A stretch of DNA of 64,000 nucleotides from an uncultured Rhodopila sp. (GTDB taxonomy: Bacteria > Pseudomonadota > Alphaproteobacteria > Acetobacterales > Acetobacteraceae): contig NZ_CAJATU010000123.1 in assembly GCF_903944925.1 (NCBI RefSeq), positions 1 through 64,000 on the forward strand, in the 5' to 3' direction. Made by a program: the position numbers and the translations under genes. The notes beneath the pieces were generated by a model. That model was given only the letters and a program-made list of their open reading frames with translations, did no database searches and was not told the DNA's origin. The stretch's first letter is position 1. Each line of letters starts with the position of its first letter. Below are positions 14,621 to 40,715 of the stretch, one piece after another.

Positions 14621-15862
14621 TCAGGCCGGATGGACCATCTTGCAGCCGGTATCGGCCACCGGGCCGGCGGCTTTCTCGCCGGGCACCACCGACGTGACGG
14701 TGAAAACCGCATCCGGGTTGTTGCCCGCCGGTGGGTGCGCGTCGCCGACGAAGATGTTGGCCATCAATTCGTGGTCGCCGGCGCGGTAGAAAATGCGGCC
14801 GGGCTGCAAGGCGACCTCCGGCGGCAGCGCCATGTCCTCCATCGCCAGCGATAGCTTCGGTCCGTCGAGCGAACCGGCCTTCTCCGCTGCGAGGCGGACG
14901 GATTCCACCGCGACCATGCCGAACCAGTGGCGCGCGCTGGGCGTTTTGCCGGTCGCCTTGCGGAAGTCGGCAACGAAGGCGCCGACCTCCGGGACGTCCG
15001 GCTGCTCCCACCACCACTCCATCGCCCAGGTTCCCGCCTGGGCTTCGCGCGGAACTGCCCGGATGGTCTCCAGCTCGAACAGCGCCCCGCCGAGATGCAT
15101 CTCCCGCTCCATGCCGAACTGGGTGAACTGCTTCATACAGTTGATTTGCGCCAACCCGCCCATGTTGTTCAGCAGCACGTTCGGCTTATAGGCCTTCGCC
15201 TTGATCAGCGTGGCGGAGAAATCCGCCGTGTTGATCGGCAACTGTTCGGCCTCGTACTCGCCGCCCAGCGCCTTCAGGCGTTTGATGAAAGCGTCCTGCA
15301 GCGTGTGGCCGTAGGCATAGTCGGGGGTGATGAAGAAGAACTTCTTGCCGAAGCGCCGCACCAGTTCGCCGGTGGTCGCGGCGGCGTCCATCGAGGTCGT
15401 GTTGCAGATGCGGAACACGTTCCACTTGCAGTCCGTGCCGGTGATCGGGTCGGTGTGGCCGCCGGGGACGATGTGGAAGACCTTCGCCTCGTTGGTCACC
15501 TGCGACATGGCATAGGCAATGCCGGAGTTCACATCGCCGAAGATGACATCGACCTTATCGCGCTCGATCAGTTTGTGGGTCTTCTGCACTCCTGTGCCGA
15601 CATCGTTCGCTGAGTCCTCCACCAGCAGTTCGATCTGCCGCCCGAGGATGCCGTTTTTCTTGTTCAACCGTCCGACCGCATAGCGTGCCCCTTCGACTTC
15701 GCTGGCGGCGAGGGCGGAAAGGATCCCGGTCAGCGGATCGACCATCCCGATGCGCACCGGCGTCTCACCGCGGGCCGAGATGATCGGCGGCGCGGCCAGC
15801 ACGAGCGCGGTTTGCAGCATGGTTCGGCGGCCGAGGCCGTGCGTTGTGGCGGTCTGCGTCAT
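14621..15862 (-). CDS. ABC transporter periplasmic substrate-binding protein (HAAT family)
   Basis: The 413-aa protein is the first gene of the importer operon. The N-terminus LGRRTMLQTALVLAAPPII-SARG carries paired arginines ahead of a hydrophobic stretch, suggesting Tat export. The mature part opens VRIGMVDPLTGILSALAASEVEGA, the usual start of a LivK/AmiC-like periplasmic fold, and DVIFGDVNSGIAYAMSQV fits the ligand cleft. The ligand is uncertain: this branch is often assigned to amides, urea or short organic acids. The ATG at 15862 is preferred over the earlier one because it starts right before the signal. Confidence 0.87.
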   Translation of the reverse strand: MTQTATTHGLGRRTMLQTALVLAAPPIISARGETPVRIGMVDPLTGILSALAASEVEGARYAVGRLNKKNGILGRQIELLVEDSANDVGTGVQKTHKLIERDKVDVIFGDVNSGIAYAMSQVTNEAKVFHIVPGGHTDPITGTDCKWNVFRICNTTSMDAAATTGELVRRFGKKFFFITPDYAYGHTLQDAFIKRLKALGGEYEAEQLPINTADFSATLIKAKAYKPNVLLNNMGGLAQINCMKQFTQFGMEREMHLGGALFELETIRAVPREAQAGTWAMEWWWEQPDVPEVGAFVADFRKATGKTPSARHWFGMVAVESVRLAAEKAGSLDGPKLSLAMEDMALPPEVALQPGRIFYRAGDHELMANIFVGDAHPPAGNNPDAVFTVTSVVPGEKAAGPVADTGCKMVHPA

Positions 15863-16149
15863 GGAGGTCTCCTGTGCCGGGCTATTTTGCCCGTTAGCTC
15901 CCTGTGGCCGCCCCAAAGGAGTGGCCTGCATTGATATCTTCGCGGACGGGTCCCCGTCGAGACGTCATGCCCGTGGCCGTCTAGCAACCGCCAAAGCCGG
16001 CGCGTCGAAAACATCAAGTCCAGAAATGCCTCGATTCAATCGTTCCGCCCGGTAGTAGCCTGGATCGAGACGGCGGTGCCGCGGGGAGGGTGGTTGGATC
16101 GCGCAATTTTGTTGTCGGGATAAGCAACTTTACACCTCGCGAGCGCCAT

Positions 16150-16370
16150 GGCTTTGCGCGCCGTCGGCGGCTTGGCGCCGTCCAACCGTATCGCCTACAC
16201 ATCCAGCGGCAGCGCATAGGTCTGCGCCACCTCCGGCATGCTGGGATGGAACGATGAATCAAAACAGGCAACCTGAGGCAGGCCCGGGAAAGCCTCGGCG
16301 AAAGCCCGCGCCCCGCGCAGGTTGAACGCCGGCATCGGCGAGAACTCGGCACCGCTGCGCGCGGCGCTGT
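16150..16370 (-). pseudogene. Acetate kinase fragment
   Basis: Minus-strand codons include FAEAFPGLPQVACFDSSFHPSMPEVAQTYALPLDV, which matches the internal acetate kinase block around the substrate-binding FDTAFH motif (usually FHxTMPEVA). An in-frame stop follows PLDV. A one-base shift restores RRYGW, resembling the next family motif YGxHG. Neither the N-terminal NAGSSS phosphate motif nor the C-terminal half is present. AckA makes acetyl phosphate from acetate and ATP. Only about 70 residues survive, so this is a remnant. Confidence 0.55.
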
Positions 16371-16535
16371 GCGCCAGGATGGCGTGGCTCGGCGTCAAGC
16401 TGGACGCGGCGGCAAACGCTTCCAACGGACCACGCATCTTCACTCCGGACAGCAAAGTGTCGGTCTGGGTCATCCCCACCAACGAGCAACTGATGATTGC
16501 CCAGCACACGCTGGCGATCATCCGGCGCTAGCGGC

Positions 16536-17285
16536 CTACAAGATCCAGCGGAAGGCCCGCCGCAGCTCGGCGGTGCCGTTCGCCTCGTAGCAGCGCCCGT
16601 GCGACAGGATGATCCTTTCCGGCGTCCAGGCGATCATGCGATCCGCCGCTTTGCGGAGCTCGCGCCGATGGCCCCGGAAACTCATTTGCATGTCGATCGG
16701 AGCCTTTCCATCCGGGTCGGCGGCCCCAGCCATCCGTATCAGCCATCGCAGCAAGACGTTTCGTACGCGTTGCGGCTCGAAGTTCTCTATAAGGTCGGTG
16801 ATGATCAGGGTCCTGCTGGCGCGGTGCAGGAAGTCGACCTCCGTCAGGAGGCTCCCCGGCACGAGGCACTGGTCGAAAGCGTCCTCCCACACATCCGGCG
16901 CGCGATCGCCGAGGGTCTCGTCGAGGACCAGAGGACGCCTGGCGGTTTGCGAAAGACCAGGAGCGCCATAAGTGCGAGCCGTCGGGAACCGGTCTCGCCA
17001 GTCGGGTAGATACCAGTAGTGCAGCGTATTAGGCGCTACGAGGTGCCGTACCCGCCCGAGATCAGCTAGCGAGGCGGCGAGCCGGTCGCTCCACGCTATG
17101 GGCGAATGGACCCAAAGATCGCCGCTCGGCAACCGAACGACCGTCATCCTGGTCGGGAAGGGAAGGGTCAGGCCGAGGTAGTGCATGCCGATCTCCGGAC
17201 CGTCGACGATCCAGACCTGGTCCGCGAAGGGCTTCAGGGTATTGAGCGGATCGTATGGCGCGTAAGCATTCGGCTTCATCGGCAA
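16536..17285 (-). CDS. DUF4336 domain-containing protein
   Basis: The 249-aa protein fits DUF4336: an N-terminal strand set (VWIVDGPEIGMHYLGLTLPFPTRMTVVRL), SGDLWVHSPI, then HLVAPNTLHYWYLPDW, and a late metallo-hydrolase-like IILSHGRCYEANG. The layout resembles a metallo-beta-lactamase fold without the full HxHxDH motif, so catalysis is doubtful. No partner gene is evident: it lies between an acetate kinase remnant and a divergent antiporter gene. Confidence 0.78.
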   Translation of the reverse strand: MPMKPNAYAPYDPLNTLKPFADQVWIVDGPEIGMHYLGLTLPFPTRMTVVRLPSGDLWVHSPIAWSDRLAASLADLGRVRHLVAPNTLHYWYLPDWRDRFPTARTYGAPGLSQTARRPLVLDETLGDRAPDVWEDAFDQCLVPGSLLTEVDFLHRASRTLIITDLIENFEPQRVRNVLLRWLIRMAGAADPDGKAPIDMQMSFRGHRRELRKAADRMIAWTPERIILSHGRCYEANGTAELRRAFRWIL

Positions 17286-29722: not shown

Positions 29723-30955
29723 TCATGCCCTCGCTTCCTGGTAGCGTTGCACCCGGAGCCACGCCACCGCCATGACCGCCACCAGGATCAGCCCGATCGA
29801 GGCACGGTTGAGCGGGAACCAGCCCAATTGTTCCTGAAGGAACCCTGCCAGGAAGCTGGCGGTCGCGGTTGTGCCGAAAACCAGGAAATCGTTCAGGGCC
29901 TGCGCCTTGCCACGCTCGGACGGCTCATAGCACGTGGTCACCAGGGTCGTCGCGCCGATGAACAGAAAGTTCCATCCGATACCATTCAGGGTGAGGGCAA
30001 TGCGGAAATGCCATTCGGTCGTGCCCGTCAGGGCCACCGAAACGCCGGCCAGGAGCACAGCGGCGCCCCAAAACATGACGTTGAACACGCCGAAACGGTT
30101 GATCAGACTCCCGGTGAAGAAGGACGGGATGAACATTCCCATGACATGGAGAAAGATCACCTAATGCGCTTCAGAGTGCGGCAGCCCGCAGCCGACGATC
30201 GCCAAGGGTGAGGCGCTCATCAGGAACGACATCGTGCCGAATGCGATCATCCCGGCGATGACGGCGGCTGCGTAACGAGGCTGCCGCGCGATTTCCAGCA
30301 GACTGCGTGGCGGAGCACCGGACGGCATGGTCCCGCCCGCCGACGTCGATTCCTGCATCGGCGGAAAATCGATAAACGACATGATCGTGAAAACTGCGAT
30401 GTGGACTGCGACCATCGTCAGATAGGTCCCAACGTAGATCGGCATCAGCGTGTCATACGACCACTGCACCATGGCCGGCCCGATGATGCCCGCCACGACG
30501 CCTCCCGCTGTCACCCAGGAGATTGACCGCGATCGATAATCCAGCGGCACCAATTCCACCGCGGCGAACCGGTACATCTGCAGGCTGGCGACGGCATAGC
30601 CCAAGATGATGCCGCCCAGGCACATGACCGGCAGACTGGCGCAATAAAGTCCCGCCGCGCAGGTCGATGCGCCGGCCATGCCGAAAACCGAGCCGACACG
30701 GAACCCGAACCGGCGCCCCTGCCTTTGCATTAGCAGAGCCGCCGGAAACACCCACAGCATGACGCCGAGGTGCTGCATCGTCATCGGCAAGGTCGCCAGG
30801 CCGCGGTTCGAAAAGAACGTGATGACCGAAAGACCGGTCGCGGTGAACATCATTGTGTTTGCCGACTGACCGATCGCTTGGCAGCAGATCAGAAGCGCAA
30901 GATTTCTCTTTGCCGCGCTCTTCAGGCGCAATTCATTCTCCCGACCCGTCTCCAT
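29723..30955 (-). pseudogene. MFS transporter split by an in-frame amber codon
   Basis: Two minus-strand frames in the same phase form one major facilitator protein of about 411 residues. The first part (265 aa from the ATG at 30955) has six to eight helices, including FGFRVGSVFGMAG and DYRSRSISWVTAGGVVAGIIGP. It ends GCGLPHSEAH at a TAG (30161-30163), and the frame continues VIFLHVMGMFIPSFFTGSLINRFG. A Trp or similar codon most likely became amber. The export substrate is unknown. Truncation removes about four helices, so it is probably inactive unless read through. Confidence 0.78.
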
Positions 30956-31040
30956 GGAGAAGACTTTACCGGCAGCGCTCCCGGACGCCATAGGCAGGGG
31001 CCACAAATCAGCCATGCAGCCCCTGAATCAGCGATTCGTG

Positions 31041-31421
31041 TCAGGCCGGCTCGACCGGCCAGCCGCTCTCGGCCAACTCCTTGAACCCACCCAGATTCCG
31101 CACATCCGTGAAACCCATATCGAGCAGCGTCTTTCCGGCCAGAGCCGACCGGCCGCCGGACGCGCAATACAGCAAAACCGGACGATCCTTGCGTAACGCC
31201 GGATCATAAGTCGGAACCGCCGGATCGGCGCGGAACTCCAGCATCCCGCGCGAAATCGCGAGCGCACCCTTGAGCTTGCCGCTGGCAGCCACCTCCGTCC
31301 CGTCACGCACATCCAGCACCAGCGCGCCGGCGTTCCTGACCAGTTCCTCAGCCGCCGCGGGCGCTATTGCCGGAACCGCGGCCCGAGCCGTCGACATCAG
31401 ATCTTTTACAGTCATGGACAT
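31041..31421 (-). CDS. Single-domain rhodanese-like sulfurtransferase
   Basis: The 126-aa protein has the rhodanese fold: GALVLDVRDGTEVAASGKLKGA, then PVLLYCASGGRSALAGKTL with active Cys86 in a six-residue loop (CASGGR), and GFTDVRNLGGF. It would carry a persulfide and pass sulfane sulfur to cyanide or thiols. It is cytoplasmic and lies downstream of the RND pump gene in the same direction. With the rhodanese at the other end of the pump cluster it brackets the transporter. Confidence 0.88.
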   Translation of the reverse strand: MSMTVKDLMSTARAAVPAIAPAAAEELVRNAGALVLDVRDGTEVAASGKLKGALAISRGMLEFRADPAVPTYDPALRKDRPVLLYCASGGRSALAGKTLLDMGFTDVRNLGGFKELAESGWPVEPA

Positions 31422-31460
31422 GGTTTTTTCCTTTCAAAACGAAATACGACGCAAGCAAGT

Positions 31461-34400
31461 CTAGGCCCCGGCCTGCAATCCATCGGGATCGCGCAGCACC
31501 ACGTAAATCGCCGGGATGACCAGCACGGTCAGCAACGTCGAAGACGCCAACCCGAACAGCAGCGAAATCGCCAGCCCCTGGAAGATCGGATCGGTCAGGA
31601 TCGTCGCCGCCCCGATCATCGCCGACAGCGCGGTCAGCAGTATCGGCTTGAACCGCACCGCACCGGCCGCCAGCACCGCCTCCCGCAAGGTCACGCCCGC
31701 CCGCGGCATGTGCCGGATAAAGTCGATCAGCAGGATCGAGTTCCGCACGATGATCCCGGCCAGCGCTATAAAGCCGATCATGGAGGTCGCCGTGAACGGC
31801 GCGTTGAACAGCCAATGGCCAAACACAATGCCGATCATCGTCAGCGGCACCGGCACCAGGACGAGCAGCGGTAGTTTGAAGCTGCCGAACTGCGCCACCA
31901 CCAGGATGTAGATCCCGAGCAGCGCCACGCCGAACGCGGCGCCCATGTCGCGGAAGGTGACGTAGGTGATCTCCCACTCGCCGTCCCACAGCACCGAGGG
32001 TTTCGACTCATCCTCCGGCTGGCCGCGCAACGAGATCTCCGGCCGCCCGAGCTTGCCCCAGTCATGCTCCGCCACCGCCCGGTTGACCGCGAGCATGCCG
32101 TATATCGGCGCCTCGAACCGACCCGCGAGTTCGGCCATCACCATGTCGGTAAAATGCCCGTCGCGGCGGAACAGCATGCGGCTGCCGGTCTCGGGTTTCG
32201 CCTGCACGACCTCGCCCAGTTCGACCACGCCGCGATTGCCGGGCAAGGCGTTGGCGGGCACCGGTGTGGAGGCCAACCGCTCGCTCCAGCTCAGGTCGCG
32301 CTTCGGGATCCCCACCGTGATGTTGAGCGGAAACCGGTCCTCGCCGCGATAGGAGTAGCCGACGGGCACGCCGCCGAACAACGCCTGCACCGTGTCGTAG
32401 ACGTCGTTCTGTTCGACGCCGAAGAATTCCAGACGATCCTGGTCGATGGCGATGCGCAGGCGCGGCCGGGCGTGGCCGTAGCTGTCATCGACATCGACGA
32501 TGAACGGCACACTGCGGAACACGGTTTTCAGTTCCTCCGCGGTCGCCCGGCGGCCGGCCGCATCGGGACCGTAGACCTCGGCCAGCAGCGTGGCCATCAC
32601 GGGCGGGCCGGGGGGCACTTCCACCACCTTCAGCACCGTGCCCTCGGGCAGCCTCAGAGCCAACAGCCGCTGCCGCAGATCGAGCGCGATGGCGTGGCTG
32701 CTGCGGCTGCGCACGTTCTTCGGCTGCAATTCCAGATGCAGCTCGCCCAGCTCCGGCGACTGGCGCAGGTAGTAGTGACGCACCAGTCCGTTGAAGTCGA
32801 ACGGCTGCGGCGTTCCGGCATAGGCCTGGACGGCGGTCACCTCCGGCAGTTCGCCGGCGATGCGGTTGGCCGCGAACAAGGCCTGCTCGGTTGCCTCCAA
32901 ACTGCCGCCTTCGGGCAGGTTGGCCAGCACGGTCAGTTCCGACTTGTTGTCGAACGGCAGCAGCTTGACCGTCACGGCCTCAAAATAGAATGCCGAGCAT
33001 GCGGCCAGCGTGGTACCCCCCACCAGCAGCAGGAACACCCACGCCGTCCTGCGGCGGCGGACCAGCGGCGTAGCGACGGCGCGATACAGTCGGCCGAGCG
33101 CGCCTTCGTCGTGGCCGCCGCCACCGGCATGCGTATCCGGCCGGCGCGGCGCCAGCTTCAGCATCAGCCAGGGCGCCACCACCATCGCCACCACGAAAGA
33201 GATCAGCATCGCCGCCGAGGCGTTCGCCGGTATCGGCGCCATGTACGGCCCCATCAGCCCGGAGACGAACAGCATCGGCAGCAACGCCGCGACCACGGTC
33301 AGCGTGGCGATGACTGTCGGATTGCCGACCTCGGCCACCGCCTCGATCACCGCCGTGGCGCGCGGACGGCCGTCGCGCATCGCCCAATGGCGGGCGATGT
33401 TCTCGACCACCACGATGGCGTCGTCCACCTGGATGCCGATGGAAAAGATCAGCGCGAACAGGCTGACCCGGTTGATCGTGTAGCCCATCGTCTTGGAGGC
33501 GAACATCGTCAGCAGGATCGTTGTCGGGATGACCACCAGCGTGACCAGCCCCTCGCGCCAGCCGATAGCCACAGCGATCAGCACCACGATGGATACCGTG
33601 GCGAGACCCAGATGGAACAGCAGCTCGTTGGCCTTGTCGTTGGCCGTGGTGCCGTAGTCGCGCGTCACCCGCACTGTGATGTCCTCCGGCAGCAGCTTGC
33701 CTTGCAGCGCCGTCAGCCGTTCATGCACCGCCTGCGACATCACCACCGCATTGGCGCCCGGACGCTTTGCCAGCGCCAGGCTGACCGCCGGCGTGCGCTG
33801 CCAGGCGCCGTCCGCGTCGCGGGTGATATTCCAGACCCGCGCATCCACCGGACTTGCGCCGACGACGACGTTCGCCACGTCGCGCACATAGACCGGGCGG
33901 CCGTCGCGCGTGCCAATCAGCAACAGGCCGAGATCGGGCACCCCGAGCAACGTCTGGCCGGCTGCGACGGTGCGCATTGTGCCTGCGTCCCGCACATTTC
34001 CCGCGACGAAGGAGCGGTTGGCATCGCGCACCTTGCCGACAAGCTGCTGCAACGTGACGCCGAACAGCGCGAGCTTCTCGGGATCGGGCTGCACCCGGAT
34101 CTCCTGCGGATCGCTGCCGGCGATATAGGTGATTCCCATGTCGGGAATCTTGACCAACTCGGTTTGCAGCTTCTGCGCCAACTGATCCAAATCCGCCTGC
34201 GTCCAGCGATCGGCCGCGGCCGGCACGGGCGACAGCGTCAGCACCATCGCCGCCACGTCGTTGAGGCCGCGCCCCACGACCAGCGGCGGGGCGATGCCGA
34301 CGGGGATCCGGTCGAGGTTGCCACTGATCTTGTTGTTGACCCGCAGGACGGCGTCGTCCTCGTTGGTGCCGACGACGAAGCGCGCTGTCACCATCACATG

Positions 34401-34676
34401 GTCGTCCTGCGTCTGGCTGTAGACGTGCTCGACGCCCGGAATCGCGGTCAGGATGGTTTCCAGCGGCTTGGTCACCAGTTCCGCCGCGTCGGCGGCGCGC
34501 AATCCGTTGGCGGAAATCATCACGTCCACCGTGGAGACGTGGATCTGCGGATCCTCCTCACGCGGGATGGTCACCAGCGCGATCATGCCGACGGCCAGCG
34601 CCGCGAGCAGAAACAACAGCGTCAGCGGCGAGCGAAGCGTCGCGCGGGTCAGCCAGCCGGAGAGACCGAGTTTCAT
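31461..34676 (-). CDS. RND-family efflux permease (AcrB/HAE-like)
   Basis: The 1071-aa inner-membrane pump has the RND layout of twelve helices with two large periplasmic loops (after TM1 and TM7). TM4 reads FALIFSIGIQVDDAIVVVENIARH with the paired Asp residues of the proton relay. PREEDPQIHVSTVDVMI at the start and FIALAGIIVRNSILLIDFI near TM10 are typical. It overlaps the adaptor gene by 4 nt. No outer-membrane channel gene is nearby, so it must borrow a TolC-like protein. Its place beside BigR and rhodaneses suggests export of thiol or sulfur-linked compounds, which is inference. Confidence 0.93.
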   Translation of the reverse strand: MKLGLSGWLTRATLRSPLTLLFLLAALAVGMIALVTIPREEDPQIHVSTVDVMISANGLRAADAAELVTKPLETILTAIPGVEHVYSQTQDDHVMVTARFVVGTNEDDAVLRVNNKISGNLDRIPVGIAPPLVVGRGLNDVAAMVLTLSPVPAAADRWTQADLDQLAQKLQTELVKIPDMGITYIAGSDPQEIRVQPDPEKLALFGVTLQQLVGKVRDANRSFVAGNVRDAGTMRTVAAGQTLLGVPDLGLLLIGTRDGRPVYVRDVANVVVGASPVDARVWNITRDADGAWQRTPAVSLALAKRPGANAVVMSQAVHERLTALQGKLLPEDITVRVTRDYGTTANDKANELLFHLGLATVSIVVLIAVAIGWREGLVTLVVIPTTILLTMFASKTMGYTINRVSLFALIFSIGIQVDDAIVVVENIARHWAMRDGRPRATAVIEAVAEVGNPTVIATLTVVAALLPMLFVSGLMGPYMAPIPANASAAMLISFVVAMVVAPWLMLKLAPRRPDTHAGGGGHDEGALGRLYRAVATPLVRRRRTAWVFLLLVGGTTLAACSAFYFEAVTVKLLPFDNKSELTVLANLPEGGSLEATEQALFAANRIAGELPEVTAVQAYAGTPQPFDFNGLVRHYYLRQSPELGELHLELQPKNVRSRSSHAIALDLRQRLLALRLPEGTVLKVVEVPPGPPVMATLLAEVYGPDAAGRRATAEELKTVFRSVPFIVDVDDSYGHARPRLRIAIDQDRLEFFGVEQNDVYDTVQALFGGVPVGYSYRGEDRFPLNITVGIPKRDLSWSERLASTPVPANALPGNRGVVELGEVVQAKPETGSRMLFRRDGHFTDMVMAELAGRFEAPIYGMLAVNRAVAEHDWGKLGRPEISLRGQPEDESKPSVLWDGEWEITYVTFRDMGAAFGVALLGIYILVVAQFGSFKLPLLVLVPVPLTMIGIVFGHWLFNAPFTATSMIGFIALAGIIVRNSILLIDFIRHMPRAGVTLREAVLAAGAVRFKPILLTALSAMIGAATILTDPIFQGLAISLLFGLASSTLLTVLVIPAIYVVLRDPDGLQAGA

Positions 34677-35659
34677 GACGCGGTCAGCACATCGCCGGAC
34701 TGCAGCCCGGACAGGATCTCGACCCCATCCGGCATGTCCGGTGTCGGCATGTCGCGGCCGCGCTGCACCGGGATTTCCAGCGTTACGCCATCGGCGGAGC
34801 GGCGGTTCACGTAACTCAGGCCAAACCGGCTGTGCACCAGGGCGGCGGGGATGACGTAGCTCGGTCTGTCATCGGCGCCGATCCAGACCCGGATGCGCTG
34901 GCCGACGAAATAGTGGCCGACGCCGGGGACCGTGGCATCGGCCAGCACGCGGCCGTCCTGGATCTGCGGATAGACCAGCACCACCGTGCCGAACACCGCT
35001 CCGCTCGCGCCCACATCGGCACCATCCAGACGCACCTTGTCGTTGACCCGCAGGAACCGGGCGTGACGCTCCGGCAGGCGCAGGCGCATGACGTAGTCGG
35101 CCTCGGCGACGCTGGCGATGACATCACCCGGCAGCACCACGCTGCCCTTGGTCACCGGCACTTGCAGAATCCGCCCGGCCCGCGGCGCCAGCACCGCCCC
35201 TTCGGTGACCTGCTGGACCACCACGCCGCGTTCGGCGATGCGGGCGGCGAGGGCACTGCTCGCCACATCCACCGCGGTGCGCGCCTGGTCGAGTTGCTGG
35301 CGCGAGGCGGCACCGGAGCGAGCCAGCGTTTCCGCCCGCCCAAGGTCGACCTGTCCCTGCGCGAGTTGCGCCCGCAGCCCGGCGATCTGCGCATCGAGCG
35401 AACGGATCTGGATTTGCAGCTTGTCGTCGCCGACGAGTGCCAACACCTGGCCCTGCGTGACTTCGTCTCCGTCTTGCACGTTCAGGTCCACGATAGTGCC
35501 CCCGATGCGGGCGCGCGCCGGCACGACGTTGCGGCTCTCAACGGTGGCGAACACGGCCTTCTCATCCGCCAGCGGACGCAGCGCGACGGTGAAGGACGTT
35601 TGCGCGCACGCCGGCGCGGTTGCCGCGGCGAGCGCGGCAACGAACCAGATCTTGTGCAT
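34673..35659 (-). CDS. RND periplasmic adaptor (membrane fusion) protein
   Basis: The 328-aa protein has a signal peptide (MHKIWFVAALAAATAPACAQT). A lipoyl half (ARIGGTIVDLNVQDGDEVTQGQVLALVGD), an alpha hairpin (about 90-160, LDAQIAGLRAQLAQGQVDLGRAETL), and a second lipoyl half (AGRILQVPVTKGSVVLPGD) follow, and then beta-barrel and membrane-proximal domains. It links the RND pump to an outer-membrane channel. The ATG at 35659 is chosen as the codon immediately before the signal. It overlaps the pump gene by ATGA. Confidence 0.92.
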   Translation of the reverse strand: MHKIWFVAALAAATAPACAQTSFTVALRPLADEKAVFATVESRNVVPARARIGGTIVDLNVQDGDEVTQGQVLALVGDDKLQIQIRSLDAQIAGLRAQLAQGQVDLGRAETLARSGAASRQQLDQARTAVDVASSALAARIAERGVVVQQVTEGAVLAPRAGRILQVPVTKGSVVLPGDVIASVAEADYVMRLRLPERHARFLRVNDKVRLDGADVGASGAVFGTVVLVYPQIQDGRVLADATVPGVGHYFVGQRIRVWIGADDRPSYVIPAALVHSRFGLSYVNRRSADGVTLEIPVQRGRDMPTPDMPDGVEILSGLQSGDVLTAS

Positions 35660-35670
35660 GGAGGTCTCCG

Positions 35671-36006
35671 TTAGCGGGTCGTCGGCAATCCCGCGGCTTT
35701 CCAGGCCATAAGTCCGCCGCGCATGTGCGACGTGACAGGCACCCCGGCCTGACGGCACTTCGCCAATGCCATGCCGGAGCGTTTGCCGCTGAGGCAGGAC
35801 AACACCACCTCGCCCTTCGGCAGCGCCGCCGGATCGAACTGCGACAGCGGCATGGAGACAGCGCCCGGTATGCGTTCGGCCGCGATCTCGTTCGGCTCGC
35901 GCACATCCACCAGGACGATCTCGCCACGGCTCATGCGGGCGCTGACCTCGGCCGGGTCGAGTTCAACCGGGCCGGACTGGGTTGCGGCCGTCTTTTTCCA
36001 GAACAC
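35671..36006 (-). CDS. Single-domain rhodanese-like protein
   Basis: The 111-aa protein has EIVLVDVREPNEIAAERIPGAVSMPLSQFD and VVLSCLSGKRSGMA with active Cys71 in the loop CLSGKR. It is cytoplasmic. Its start abuts the end of the BigR-type regulator gene (a shared base at 36006), and the RND adaptor follows after 11 nt, so regulator, rhodanese, adaptor and pump look like one operon. It would bind sulfane sulfur released by sulfide oxidation. Confidence 0.9.
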   Translation of the reverse strand: MFWKKTAATQSGPVELDPAEVSARMSRGEIVLVDVREPNEIAAERIPGAVSMPLSQFDPAALPKGEVVLSCLSGKRSGMALAKCRQAGVPVTSHMRGGLMAWKAAGLPTTR

Positions 36007-36374
36007 TATAGGTCTCCCTCAGAGTTTGCTTCAGTCTGCGGTTTCGTCCTGGCCGGATCGCCGCAGATCGGGTCGGGCGAGCAGTAGATCGCGAACAGCG
36101 TCTCCAGCACCTGCTGCGCCGGGCACGAGGCGATCGAGTAGTAGATCGTCTGGGCGTCCCGCCGCGCCTGCACCAGACCATCCTTGCGCAGCAGCGCAAG
36201 GTGCTGGGAGACGGTCGAATCGCGCACCTTGAGGAACGCGGCAAGGTCGCCGACGGAGCGCTCGCCATCGACGAGTTGGCACAGAATCAGCAGGCGGTTG
36301 CGGTTGGCGAGCGACTTGAGAAGCTCGCTCGCCTGATCCGCTGCCGCCTCCATAACGTCAGGCTTTATTTTCAT
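36006..36374 (-). CDS. ArsR-family persulfide-sensing repressor (BigR/SqrR type)
   Basis: This 122-aa winged-helix protein has LLKSLANRNRLLILCQLVDGERSVGDLAAFL, recognition segment VSQHLALLRKDGLVQARRDAQTIYYSI. Cys32 and Cys98 are spaced exactly 66 residues apart, as Cys42/Cys108 of BigR and Cys41/Cys107 of SqrR. Those cysteines form a polysulfide link that releases DNA. The ATG at 36374 is preferred over the earlier one because the family begins just before the first helix. It sits between the pump operon and a divergent sqr fragment, so it probably controls both. Confidence 0.88.
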   Translation of the reverse strand: MKIKPDVMEAAADQASELLKSLANRNRLLILCQLVDGERSVGDLAAFLKVRDSTVSQHLALLRKDGLVQARRDAQTIYYSIASCPAQQVLETLFAIYCSPDPICGDPARTKPQTEANSEGDL

Positions 36375-36483
36375 ACTTGCGAAGATACACAATCCCGCAT
36401 ATGTAGTCAAGCCAATACCGAACCGAGGAAACCGGCCGAAGGGCGGCCGGCATGCCCCGGCAAGATTTCAAGGGAGAGACGAT
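36375..36483. promoter_or_regulatory. Divergent promoter region of the sulfur island
   Basis: These 109 bp separate the BigR-type gene from sqr. The first about 45 bp are AT-rich with ATAC...GATACA...CATATG patches that could form the repressor site. A GGGAGA ribosome site precedes the sqr ATG. The operator is inferred from position only. Confidence 0.5.
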
Positions 36484-36960
36484 ATGGCGGACGTGGTGGT
36501 TTTAGGGGCTGGTCTGGGCGGCACGCTGATGGCTTACGAACTGATGCCCCAGCTTCATGACGGCGACACGCTCACTTTGATCAGCGAAGGCACCCGCTAC
36601 CATTTCGTGCCATCTAACCCGTGGGTCGCCATCGGCTGGCGCAAACGGGAAGAAATTGAGATCGACCTCGAGTCGGTCATGCGCCGCAAGAACATCCGCC
36701 TGCTGGCGCAGGGAGCGGCGCGGGTTGTTCCGGAGCAGAACTGTGTTACGATGAAGGACGGCACCTGGGTGCCGTACGACTATCTCGCCACCGGCCCGGA
36801 CCTGGCGTTCGATGAGATCGAAGGGTTCGGGCCGAAAGGTCATACACAGTCGATCTGCAATGTCGATTGCGCCGAGCACGCTTGGCATGCATTCGAGGAT
36901 TTCTGCAAGAAACCGGGGCCGATCGTTCTCGCCGCCCCGCCGACATCAAGACAGTCATGA
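36484..36960 (+). pseudogene. Sulfide:quinone oxidoreductase, N-terminal fragment
   Basis: The 158 codons encode the N-terminal third of an SQR: VVVLGAGLGGTLMAYEL is the FAD-binding motif, RYHFVPSNPWVAIGWRKREEI and LATGPDLAFDEIEG are SQR blocks. After CKKPGPIVLAAP the sequence departs from the family and a stop follows. About 270 residues with the catalytic cysteines and the C-terminal membrane helices are missing. The stop overlaps the next ATG (ATGA). A deletion joining sqr to the region before the DUF2892 gene explains this. A functional SQR would oxidise sulfide to polysulfide. Confidence 0.82.
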
Positions 36961-37160
36961 CCATCGACAATGCGGTGCTGAGCTTCGCCGGAGCGGTCGT
37001 TCTGACCAGCCTTGCGCTCGGCTGGTTCGTCAGTCCGTGGTGGCTGCTGCTGACCGCCTTCGCCAGCCTGAATATGCTACAAGCGGGTTTCACCGGGTTC
37101 TGCCCGGCGGCGAAGATTTTCCGGCGGCTCGGGCTGAAGCCCGGCCGCGCCTTCATCTGA
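36957..37160 (+). CDS. DUF2892 (YgaP-type) membrane protein
   Basis: The 67-aa protein begins MTIDNAVLSFAGAVVLTSLALGW and has a helical hairpin with FTGFCPAAKIFRRLGLK at the end. This is the transmembrane tail seen fused to rhodanese in YgaP and as separate ORFs in sulfur operons. The conserved FCP cysteine is present. It overlaps the truncated sqr by ATGA. Confidence 0.85.
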   Translation: MTIDNAVLSFAGAVVLTSLALGWFVSPWWLLLTAFASLNMLQAGFTGFCPAAKIFRRLGLKPGRAFI

Positions 37161-37179
37161 TCCAACCAGGAGATTCCAC

Positions 37180-37353
37180 ATGACAAAGAACATCGGCCTG
37201 ATCGACCGGGTGGTGCGCGCCGCCATCGGCATCGCTCTCATCGCCTGGGCACTCCTCGGCGGCCCTGTCTGGGCCTGGATCGGCCTTGTGCCGCTGCTGA
37301 CCGCGGGATTCTCGTTCTGCCCGGCCTATTCGCTGCTGCGCTTTCACACCTGA
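37180..37353 (+). CDS. Second DUF2892 membrane protein
   Basis: The 57-aa protein starts MTKNIGLIDRVVRAAIGIALI and contains a short hairpin ending LTAGFSFCPAYSLLRF, the compact DUF2892 form with the same FCP cysteine as its neighbour. AGGAGA lies 6 nt before the ATG. It follows the first DUF2892 gene by 19 nt and precedes the AhpD-like gene by 14 nt, all in one transcript. Confidence 0.85.
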   Translation: MTKNIGLIDRVVRAAIGIALIAWALLGGPVWAWIGLVPLLTAGFSFCPAYSLLRFHT

Positions 37354-37367
37354 CAGGAGACCGTTTC

Positions 37368-37724
37368 ATGTTGAACGACTGGAGCGCGATGACGCGCGAT
37401 TTCTCGGCCGGGCTACGCGACGTGCGCGCCGGGATTCCCGATGTGATGAAGGGCTTCTCGGCGACCGCGCAGGCGGCGCTGAAAGCCAACGCGCTGGATA
37501 CGAAGACGAAGGAACTGCTGGCGCTGGGCATCGCCGTGGCAACCCGCTGCGACCCGTGCATCGCCTTCCATGCGGAAGCCGCGGTCAAACACGGCGCATC
37601 GCGTGAGGAGATTCTCGAAACAGTCGGCATCGCGATCTACATGGGTGCCGGCCCGAGCGTGATGTACGCGGCAAAGGCTTTGGAAGCGTTCGACCAATTC
37701 GCGCCGCCGTCAAAGGCAGCGTGA
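37368..37724 (+). CDS. Carboxymuconolactone decarboxylase/AhpD-like protein
   Basis: The 118-aa protein has the AhpD core: LDTKTKELLALGIAVATRCDPCIAFHAEAAVKHGAS, with Cys61-x-x-Cys64 and His68 as the thiol redox triad. AhpD-like proteins reduce peroxiredoxins or lipoyl/persulfide thiols. It sits in the BigR-side operon with DUF2892 genes and a rhodanese, so a role in clearing reactive sulfur is plausible. The stop overlaps the next ATG (TGATG). Confidence 0.88.
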   Translation: MLNDWSAMTRDFSAGLRDVRAGIPDVMKGFSATAQAALKANALDTKTKELLALGIAVATRCDPCIAFHAEAAVKHGASREEILETVGIAIYMGAGPSVMYAAKALEAFDQFAPPSKAA

Positions 37725-38617
37725 TGAGCCAAAGAGTCCAGCGCGCGGCGCACCTCCCCGGGTGCGCCATCGCAACCTCTCTCGCCCTCGCGTTCGCAAG
37801 CTTCAGCGAATCCGCGTTCGCTGCGGATCCCCTGGTGGACGCAACCCGGATCGCCGCCAGGGCCGGCAACCCGCATGTGGCGGTGATCGACCTGCGCCCG
37901 GCCGCAGCATTCCAGGCGGCCCACATTCCCGGGGCGATTTCGGCCGACTATCGCACCGCGGGATGGACGGTTCCCGGCCAGGGCGGCGCGACCGCGGCCC
38001 TGCCACCGGTGGAACGGATTGCCGCCGCCATCGGCGCGCTTGGAGTAGGCGACGGCGATGAAGTCGAAATCGTCGCCGACGAGTTCCCGGCCGCGGCGAG
38101 GGTCTACTGGACTTTCAAAGTGCTCGGGCACACGGAGGTTTCCATTCTGGACGGCGGCTGGAAGACATGGAGCGGCGCGGTTGAAAGCGGTGCGGCAACG
38201 CGCGGTCCGGCGGTGTTCACGCCGCACTACAACGCCTCGCTGCGAGCGGAGCTGCCGGAGGTCGCCGCCGCGGTTACCCAGGGCAGCGCCACGCTGGTGG
38301 ACGCACGTCCGGCTTCGCAATGGAGCGGCTCCGTCCTGTCGCCCCTGGTGCATGCCGGAGGTCATATCCCGGGTGCGGTTTCGTTGGATGAGAGCGCCAT
38401 CCAGACAGCCGACGGCCGCCTTAAATCGCGCGACGCGCTGGCGCTGCTGTTCGCGCCCGCGGGCGGCAAACCGGCGATCGTCTATTGCAATGCCGGCTAC
38501 CTCTCGGCGGCCGACTGGTTCGTGCTGTCCGAGGTTCTGCATCGGCCGGATGCGAAGCTGTACGAAGGTTCAATGTCGGAATGGACCTCGGATGCGTCGC
38601 GCCCCGTCGTGAGGTGA
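37724..38617 (+). CDS. Exported tandem-rhodanese sulfurtransferase (TST-like)
   Basis: The 297-aa protein has a signal peptide (cleaved near AFA-AD, residue 34). It has two rhodanese domains: an N-terminal one (VAVIDLRPAAAFQAAHIPGAI) without an active Cys (IVADEFPAAA instead), and a C-terminal one with IVYCNAGYLSA, active Cys255. This is the thiosulfate/3-mercaptopyruvate sulfurtransferase plan, with the Cys domain second. Export would place it in the periplasm, where it could act on thiosulfate. It is the last gene of the plus-strand sulfur operon and faces the LysR remnant. Confidence 0.88.
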   Translation: MSQRVQRAAHLPGCAIATSLALAFASFSESAFAADPLVDATRIAARAGNPHVAVIDLRPAAAFQAAHIPGAISADYRTAGWTVPGQGGATAALPPVERIAAAIGALGVGDGDEVEIVADEFPAAARVYWTFKVLGHTEVSILDGGWKTWSGAVESGAATRGPAVFTPHYNASLRAELPEVAAAVTQGSATLVDARPASQWSGSVLSPLVHAGGHIPGAVSLDESAIQTADGRLKSRDALALLFAPAGGKPAIVYCNAGYLSAADWFVLSEVLHRPDAKLYEGSMSEWTSDASRPVVR

Positions 38618-38636
38618 GCGGCGGGGTCGAGACGGG

Positions 38637-39170
38637 CTAAGCCGCAGCCCGGCGAATCACCTCCAGCAGCGCCGCCGCCGCGCGCCCGTGGTGGCGGTCG
38701 CCGTGCCGCAGCGCCAGGAAGCGGCGTTCCCGGAAAGCAAACGGCAGCTCCACCAGCGATCCCGACGCCAGGCCCGCATGTGCCACCAGCGACGAAATCG
38801 CCGTCGCGCCGGCCCCCCGCCTCCACGGCCGCGCGGACCGCCTCGTTCGACGGCAGTTCCAGGCCCTCATGGAGTTTCTCCGGATCGACGCCGAACCCCG
38901 TCATCGCGTCCTCGAACACCTGGCGGGTGCCCGATCCGCGCTCGCGCAACATCCGGCATGCCCCGGCCAGATCATCGGCCGCCACCTGCGTCTTCGACGC
39001 CCACGCATGCCCCCCCCACCACAAGCACCAGCCGATCGGCTGCGACTGGGATCTGCACCGGCCAGGGCAATCGGCCGACGGCGACAGGACAATGGGAGCG
39101 AATCGCGCGACGCACCCTTGCGGCGCATTCGGCGGCGCGGCAGCGGTCCCGGCGCGGCAGCACTGATGCC
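38637..39170 (-). pseudogene. LysR-type regulator, C-terminal half with frameshifts
   Basis: Minus-strand pieces assemble into a LysR effector-binding domain: LVLVVGG, HAWASKTQVAADDLAGACRMLRERGSGTRQVFEDAM, then LPSNEAVRAAVEAG, and after a frame change ATAISSLVAHAGL, ELPFAFRERRFLALRHGDRH. One shift lies at the homopolymer C tract near 39010, another near 38815. The HTH half is missing. Regulators of this kind often control sulfur or CO2 genes. It is clearly inactive unless the shifts are sequencing errors. Confidence 0.75.
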
Positions 39171-39275: not shown

Positions 39276-39542
39276 ATGACCACCGTGACCATATCGCTGC
39301 CCGACTCGCTGAAGGCTTTCGTTGATACACAGGTTTCCACCAAGGGTTTCGGCAATGTCAGCGAGTACTTCCGTACCCTGCTTCGGGACGCGCAGGCGAA
39401 GGAGGAGGATGCCCGGCTCGAGGCGCTACTGCTGGAAGGGCTGGCCTCGCAGCGCCTGCCGCTGGACGACGCGTTCTTGAAGGGTCTGGAGACCAAAACG
39501 GCGGCGATACTGGATAAGTATAAGGACCGCCAACGGCCGTGA
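39276..39542 (+). CDS. parD: ParD-type antitoxin
   Basis: The 88-aa protein starts TTVTISLPDSLKAFVDTQVSTKGFGNVSEYFRTLLRDAQ, the ribbon-helix-helix of ParD/CC2985 antitoxins, followed by a helical toxin-binding tail. It would repress its promoter and bind ParE. The stop overlaps the parE GTG (GTGA). Its partner is truncated, so it is an orphan antitoxin. Confidence 0.9.
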   Translation: MTTVTISLPDSLKAFVDTQVSTKGFGNVSEYFRTLLRDAQAKEEDARLEALLLEGLASQRLPLDDAFLKGLETKTAAILDKYKDRQRP

Positions 39543-39710: not shown

Positions 39711-40715
39711 ATGCACCTTGCCCGATTTCCGCGGGTCCGCCTCTTTCCGGCGCCGACCCCACTCGAACGGCTGCACAATCTCACGCATAGGTTGGGTGGG
39801 CCGCAAATTTGGGTCAAGCGGGATGATTGCACTGTTGTTGCCACCGGCGGGAACAAGGTCCGCAAATTGGAATGGCTCATCGGCGAGGCTCTTGCACAGG
39901 GCGCCTCTCACATCGTCACTCAGGGTGCCATCCAGTCGAACCATGTCCGTCAGACCGCTGCGATAGCTCGAAAGTTCGGCATGACCTGCACCGCATTGCT
40001 GGAGCACCGCTTTGACACCGACGACCGCGACTATCTGTCCAGTGGCAACGTTCTACTCGATCGGCTTTTCGGCTGCCGGATCGAATACCGGCCAGCCGGG
40101 CTAGATATGAACGCCGAGGCCGAAAAGCGAGGCAGCGAACTGCGTGCGGATGGCGAAACCGTCTACGTCATCCCAGGCGGAGGCTCTAATAGCGTCGGCG
40201 CCCTGGGGTATGTATCTTGCGCGCAGGAACTTATGCAGCAAGCTGATGAAATTGGGCTGCGCATCGACCGGATCGTTACCGCGACCGGAAGCGCCGGCAC
40301 TCAGGCCGGATTGGTGGTCGGCCTGGAGGGCACGAATGCCAACGTTCCGGTCCTGGGTATCGGCGTCCGACTCCCACGGGAGCCGCAGGAAGAAAAAGTC
40401 TACCTCCTGACCGTCGCGACCGCGTCGCGGCTGGGCATCAAAGCCAGCATCGCACGGGAGGCCGTGGTTGCCAATTGCGATTATGTGGGTGCCGGCTATG
40501 GAGTCCCGACCAAAGGCATGGGCGAAGCCGTGCGCATGATGGCGGAAGAGGAGGGGATCCTCCTCGATCCGGTCTACTCCGGGAAGGCGATGGCCGGATT
40601 GATTGATCTGATCCGCAAGGGCACATTTGCGAGGGACGAAACTATCGTCTTCCTGCACACCGGCGGAGCGGCCGGGCTATTTGGTTACAATACGTTCTTC
40701 GACCGTGCGGAGTGA
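39711..40715 (+). CDS. PLP-dependent D-cysteine desulfhydrase / L-cysteate sulfo-lyase family
   Basis: The 334-aa fold-type II PLP enzyme begins [21 protein letters not shown], with PLP Lys49 in [10 protein letters not shown], then [15 protein letters not shown] and a phosphate-binding [10 protein letters not shown]. It belongs to the DcyD/ACC deaminase group. The MHLARFPR start and [14 protein letters not shown] block are also the style of CuyA, which releases sulfite from L-cysteate. D-cysteine desulfhydrase would make pyruvate, ammonia and H2S. Both fit the sulfur setting; the choice needs active-site comparison. Base composition is milder than in neighbours, a hint of transfer. It is convergent with pdxA. 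Confidence 0.85.

Follow-up and report, generated by a model that had tools for sequence, protein, structure and literature searches.

A BigR-like repressor and a distinct subfamily of RND pumps in a putative persulfide-responsive efflux module of proteobacteria

INTRODUCTION

Sulfur genes of Acinetobacter baumannii and Rhodobacter are under the control of two-cysteine repressors of the ArsR family, BigR and SqrR, respectively. According to section 2.1 of Li et al. 2025 (PMC12423496), cysteine pairs of this kind sense persulfide in SqrR, BigR, YgaV, HlyU, and SoxR relatives, and PMC9774250 describes YgaV of Escherichia coli as a sensor of the BigR type, which binds in its own promoter a sequence similar to the one deduced for SqrR, ATTC-N8-GAAT. 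Here, we analyze a 64,000-nucleotide stretch (the window) of an uncultured Rhodopila sp. (contig NZ_CAJATU010000123.1, positions 1 to 64,000), in which an island at positions 31041 to 38617 likewise combines a two-cysteine ArsR repressor with sulfur genes and joins to them an RND adaptor and pump. In E. coli, YgaP fuses a rhodanese and a transmembrane (TM) domain; the Rhodopila island shares both parts with ygaVP but encodes them in separate genes, and differs from it by the adaptor and pump in the operon. The BigR operon of A. baumannii is also different, consisting of yeeE-yedE-pdo2, and the article that describes it (PMC7315123) does not use the term RND anywhere in its main text.

A link between such regulators and RND pumps is already in print, since one sentence in section 2.1 of Li et al. 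2025 (PMC12423496) lists RND pumps as further apparent targets of these regulators. That section contains the same kind of association as reported here, without a pump subfamily, an operator, a control set, or a cargo. Our searches of the open-access literature turned up no account of the pump subfamily, of its linkage as tested against controls, of its extension to distant proteobacteria, of the enrichment of operators, or of sulfide:quinone oxidoreductase (SQR) loss in this lineage, and no recognizable report of experiments in which an RND pump exported sulfane sulfur. Oxidation aside, little has to our knowledge been established about the routes by which bacteria get rid of excess sulfane sulfur.

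RESULTS AND DISCUSSION

A BigR-like repressor with the cysteine pair of persulfide sensors

The minus-strand operon of the island has the order bigR, rhodanese, adaptor, RND, and rhodanese, with genes that overlap or lie close together. The first open reading frame (ORF; ATG at 36374, end at 36006) encodes a BigR/SqrR-like ArsR repressor, as judged from PDB alignments and Pfam and NCBIfam matches. It passed the NCBIfam model of the ArsR/SmtB subfamily (83.2 bits; cut-off, 55), and its best match in that database was BigR; since the 86.9 bits obtained are below the curated equivalog cut-off of 155, we call the protein BigR-like rather than BigR. Its cysteines C32 and C98, which are 66 residues apart, align with both cysteines of HlyU (PDB entries 4k2e and 3jth) and with two cysteines of the ArsR protein in entries 13ct/6o8k, which we take to be SqrR. 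They presumably correspond to the sensor cysteines of SqrR, C41 and C107 in what we assume to be its numbering. These alignments bear out the 66-residue BigR/SqrR spacing noted in the preliminary description of the island. Both cysteines were invariant in 16 sequences hand-chosen from cysteine-type regulators, and the pair was kept in 53 of the 69 BigR-like hits across the pump loci gathered for comparison (labeled L0xx to L2xx). Taken together, these data support the assignment of the window repressor as a predicted persulfide-type sensor.

Predicted promoter and operators

A predicted promoter of the bigR operon, TTGACT-17-TATCTT, is located at 36382..36410 on the minus strand (one found, as compared with a mean of 0.1 in shuffled sequences). 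As judged by eye, its -10 element ends ~8 bases before the bigR ATG (36374 to 36387, minus strand), so the bigR mRNA may be nearly leaderless.

Close relatives carry a palindrome, TATATTCG-N6-CGTATATA, between the predicted -35 and -10 elements of bigR. At least 12 of its 16 fixed positions were matched in 21 of 68 bigR upstream regions, as opposed to 0.4% of shuffled sequences, in a count made on a set that includes the sequences from which the motif was derived. The published SqrR site ATTC-N8-GAAT, taken from PMC9774250, served as the independent test. It was found 23 times in 1609 kb of family loci and 3 times in 543 kb of control loci, and 14 of the 23 occurrences, which come from 99 loci, fall inside the promoter zones of module genes, that is, in 4.75% of the sequence. 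The site stands just before the adaptor gene in six Rhodobacterales loci (L087, L091, L094, L095, L100, and L107). Operators of this type at promoters of the family are a supported prediction; the copy in the window is degenerate.

The pump is linked to sulfur genes in many proteobacteria

Linkage was assessed at three sets of loci. The close set comprised, besides the window, 99 loci, namely, the best 80 of 595 confirmed in a search of genome contigs (more exist), 6 plasmid loci hand-chosen from 52 records (one of these loci, L034 of Vibrio, with an identity of just 42%), and 13 loci from relatives. The distant set contained 20 loci hand-chosen from the matches of a phylum-wide pump search, and the control set contained 30 other RND loci, hand-chosen from the match list of 59 relative genomes that include the window's own. 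Because many loci are related and two of them (L038 and L119, of equal length) are probably one contig, p-values are only a rough guide.

The main count was made with hidden Markov models (HMMs) built from seed sequences, at loci flanked on either side by 6 kb or more of sequence, with a distance limit of 6 kb. BigR was present at 40 of 58 close, 7 of 19 distant, and 0 of 27 control loci; the YgaP-like TM protein at 41, 13, and 0; a single-domain rhodanese at 20, 8, and 1; and SQR at 27, 5, and 0, respectively. At least one of these four markers accompanied the pump at 48/58 close, 13/19 distant, and 1/27 control loci. HMMs trained on the close loci gave 48/58, 13/19, and 3/27 for any of the four and 27/58, 6/19, and 2/27 for SQR, and seed HMMs applied without the flank filter gave 80/99, 14/20, and 1/30 for any of the four. 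The survey of BigR, rhodanese, and RND genes that the preliminary description had suggested thus revealed a linkage that is not local, exceeds chance, and recurs across many proteobacteria. Such recurrence points to a role of the pump in sulfur detoxification.

TolC behaved differently in the two family sets. With the flank filter, it was not enriched within 6 kb in the close set (7/58, versus 1/27 in controls) and was enriched in the distant set (7/19); trained HMMs gave 8/19 distant and 4/27 control loci (p ~0.05) and, unfiltered, 12/99 close, 8/20 distant, and 4/30 control loci. TolC, the pump, and the YgaP-like TM protein occur together with rhodanese, SQR, or both at L190, L197, and L203 to L206. 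Of these, L204, L205, and L206 are compact, with BigR, TolC, adaptor, RND, YgaP-like TM protein, and one to three rhodaneses, after which comes an SQR in L204 and L205.

In a draw of 299 genomes from the phylum, 146 contained a family member (E ≤ 1e-180). We considered a role as an exporter of sulfur lithotrophs and dropped it, as the pump was not enriched among the SoxB genomes of the same draw (21/41; lists compared by eye).

The pump and its adaptor

The RND permease gene (31461..34676, minus strand; PF00873) overlaps by 4 bases with that of the periplasmic adaptor, a membrane fusion protein (34673..35659, minus strand; TIGR01730 above cut-off). For the pump, 16 NCBIfam models were listed, and it falls short of the cut-off of each. 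A family HMM scored the 100 close loci at 1132 bits or more, the 20 distant ones at 948 or more, and 36 control pumps at no more than 315. Given this gap in scores, the pump is assigned to a distinct RND subfamily. We relied on the scores rather than on a tree, because in the midpoint-rooted tree the smallest clade with close and distant members was the whole tree, controls included; the smallest clade to contain every close member also took in 15 of the 21 sequences of the distant set (a paralogue of L199 besides 20 family members).

All 98 close members aligned have D, D, and R at the equivalents of D407, D408, and K940, which we take to be proton-relay positions in AcrB numbering, and 97 have T at that of T978, presumably a further such position, with a gap in the remaining one. 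Of the 36 control pumps, 22 have K at the K940 position, 7 have R, and the other 7 have a different residue. An AlphaFold2 model of the pump (mean pLDDT, 81.8; pTM, 0.75) has the RND fold and, together with the relay residues, supports assignment as an AcrB-type RND permease. The pump shares fold (TM-score, ~0.8) and proton relay with tripartite pumps of the AcrB/BpeF/OqxB type, but differs from them in sequence (18 to 24% identity to solved pumps among the 50 fold matches listed, of which BpeF ranked first), in the R at the K940 position, and in a motif of its own, FNGLVRH (F628 to H634). This motif showed no variation in two alignments, one of 13 and one of 31 members, and lies in the model within a low-confidence loop between two strands, where, by AcrB anatomy, we place the switch loop. 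The fold was indecisive as to substrate, since drug and metal pumps both matched well. A cysteine relay within the pump was considered and dropped, the only alignment column with at least 15% cysteine having it in 31 of 98 members.

All 92 adaptors carry R and L at the hairpin tip, with T, S, A, or P at the third position; the window adaptor has R, L, and S. We take this to be the docking motif for an outer membrane factor, and its presence is consistent with a tripartite system. No TolC hit was obtained at the window locus, so the outer membrane channel is not in the operon, and 18 OEP domain matches were found elsewhere in the genome.

A remnant of SQR opposite the operon

The preliminary description had reported a truncated SQR on the opposite strand, and this was confirmed by comparison with a relative that has a full-length SQR of 439 residues (L118; match to PDB entry 3sz0, presumably the Acidithiobacillus ferrooxidans enzyme, with E of 8e-144). 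The window ORF (36484..36960, plus strand) is a 5' remnant of 158 residues that is 70% identical to residues 11 to 165 of the L118 frame and matches nothing of the rest. It ends before GASC, which, going by the 3sz0 enzyme, we take to be the site of the first catalytic cysteine; the window thus holds an SQR pseudogene. No other match to the L118 SQR (E ≤ 1e-5) was found in this genome, an assembly of 200 contigs and 99.4% completeness. The sister locus (L117 of genome G007, the closest relative among the 59 genomes, with a 96% identical pump) has no SQR, only 47 bases separating the flanking aligned blocks. With SQR broken in one and absent from the other, the pump operon has been retained without an intact local SQR, and the module of this organism does not depend on one. 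The 49 SQR hits across the loci (45 loci, window included) are mostly full length; split or partial ones occur in L044, L053, and L066.

Proposed mechanism and alternative explanations

We propose that the island is a persulfide-responsive efflux module whose pump expels surplus sulfane sulfur or low-molecular-weight carriers of it, and assign to this reading a probability of about one-half. The BigR-like protein would sit at a site over the promoter and repress the operon to which it belongs. A rise in sulfane sulfur would lead to a sulfur bridge between C32 and C98 and to release of the repressor from the DNA, so that rhodaneses, YgaP-like membrane proteins, and a tripartite pump, made up of adaptor, RND protein, and a channel encoded elsewhere, would be produced. 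The rhodaneses and TM proteins would take care of sulfane sulfur within the inner membrane and during its passage across it, and the surplus, or its carriers, would leave the periplasm through the pump. Derepression under sulfane-sulfur stress would be expected from the sensing statements in section 2.1 of PMC12423496 and from the anatomy of the locus. Most likely, then, the repressor is relieved by persulfide and induces a pump dedicated to such stress, which may throw out excess reactive sulfur. The scheme draws on features read from sequences, namely, the sensor cysteines, the operator enrichment in the family, the subfamily-wide linkage, the intact proton relay, and the docking motif of the adaptor; the induction, the path of the sulfur, and the cargo we infer.

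Several observations weigh against this proposal. The cysteine pair is missing in 16 of the 69 BigR-like hits, several sphingomonad loci among them. Seven of these (L033, L051, L054, L059, L060, L076, and L098) retain the first cysteine, with another one placed four residues ahead of the second position, and in a few hits a cysteine directly precedes that position, so sensing may differ in these variants. The operator-like palindrome of the window (36382..36403, between the predicted -35 and -10) is degenerate, with 11 of 16 fixed positions in a by-eye alignment to the sister copy, and SQR is a remnant here and absent from the sister. No conserved cysteine was found in 98 aligned pumps, none of the four markers lies within 6 kb at 10 of 58 close and 6 of 19 distant well-flanked loci, and the pump does not track SoxB. 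Sulfane sulfur or its carriers remain our preferred cargo, a choice based on association. Of the interpretation in the preliminary description, the persulfide-type sensor, the predicted family operators, and the recurrent linkage of RND and sulfane-sulfur genes were substantiated, and the export of sulfur itself stays at the level of association.

The foremost alternative, which we consider unlikely, is a broad-spectrum efflux pump with drugs or lipids as cargo that is merely switched on by sulfane sulfur. MexAB-OprM would be a precedent, being derepressed by sulfane sulfur through MexR according to a review (PMC12918742), and the fold of the window pump is about equally near to drug and metal pumps. 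Such a pump would not readily account for the rarity of sulfur neighbors at other RND pumps, with either set of HMMs, or for the linkage to YgaP-like TM protein, rhodanese, and SQR that extends to distant members. Somewhat less probable still is the export of organic polysulfides or thiol adducts of electrophiles instead of inorganic sulfane sulfur. Tripartite pumps usually take amphiphilic cargo and an AhpD-like protein occurs in 12 of 100 loci, but SQR in 45 of the 100 (window remnant counted) points to inorganic sulfide. We regard it as improbable that the island is decaying in this organism and has lost a working sulfide response, as the SQR remnant, the adjacent LysR and MFS fragments, and the degenerate operator might indicate, since bigR, both rhodanese genes of the operon, and the adaptor and pump genes are open frames, with 90% DNA identity to the sister over 6.7 kb. 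Export of metal or metalloid thiolates, to which an ACR3 arsenite transporter 2.7 kb away and CusA structures among the listed fold matches could point, is very improbable, given a two-aspartate TM4 motif that we take to be a feature of drug-type pumps and the position of ACR3 outside the block aligned to the sister.

A bolder form of the sulfane-sulfur export proposal, that export of zero-valent (sulfane) sulfur is the dedicated function of the phylum-wide subfamily, which forms with YgaP-like TM proteins and rhodaneses a disposal line from the cytoplasm to the outside, is tentative, and we would sooner expect it to fail than to hold. If true, such a line would let cells lower reactive sulfur without oxidizing it, and if the subfamily moves sulfane sulfur, RND pumps would gain a new class of physiological cargo. 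Named members, such as PDEN_RS23380 of Paracoccus denitrificans PD1222, make the question of the cargo testable.

Other genes of the island and its surroundings

The remaining genes agree with the preliminary description, which had placed rhodanese, adaptor, pump, and rhodanese behind the repressor and SQR, two DUF2892 proteins, an AhpD-like protein, and a tandem rhodanese on the opposite side; all were recovered there as ORFs with Pfam or NCBIfam matches. The two minus-strand rhodaneses are single-domain proteins (PF00581), at 35671..36006 (active loop CLSGKRS by eye; PDB matches include the rhodanese domain of E. coli YgaP) and 31041..31421 (CASGGRS by eye; common to the sister). On the plus strand, the SQR remnant is followed by two YgaP-like two-TM proteins (DUF2892, PF11127; 36957..37160 and 37180..37353), a carboxymuconolactone decarboxylase (CMD)/AhpD-like protein (37368..37724; PF02627, TIGR00778 above cut-off), and a two-domain rhodanese (37721..38617; two PF00581 stretches) with an N-terminal export-signal-like segment recognized by eye.

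A LysR remnant at 38497 to 39024 (minus strand) has no helix-turn-helix match; the sister has a LysR gene with both domains (14675 to 15562), followed by a PF03601 protein (15569 to 16609). Two adjoining MFS ORFs at 29723 to 31015 (minus strand) resemble one split transporter gene. On the plus strand, a ParD-like antitoxin at 39276 to 39542 gave a weak match just below the Pfam cut-off, and a D-cysteate sulfo-lyase, CuyA (39711 to 40715; over the NCBIfam cut-off), whose name implies sulfite release, is located 1.1 kb past the island.

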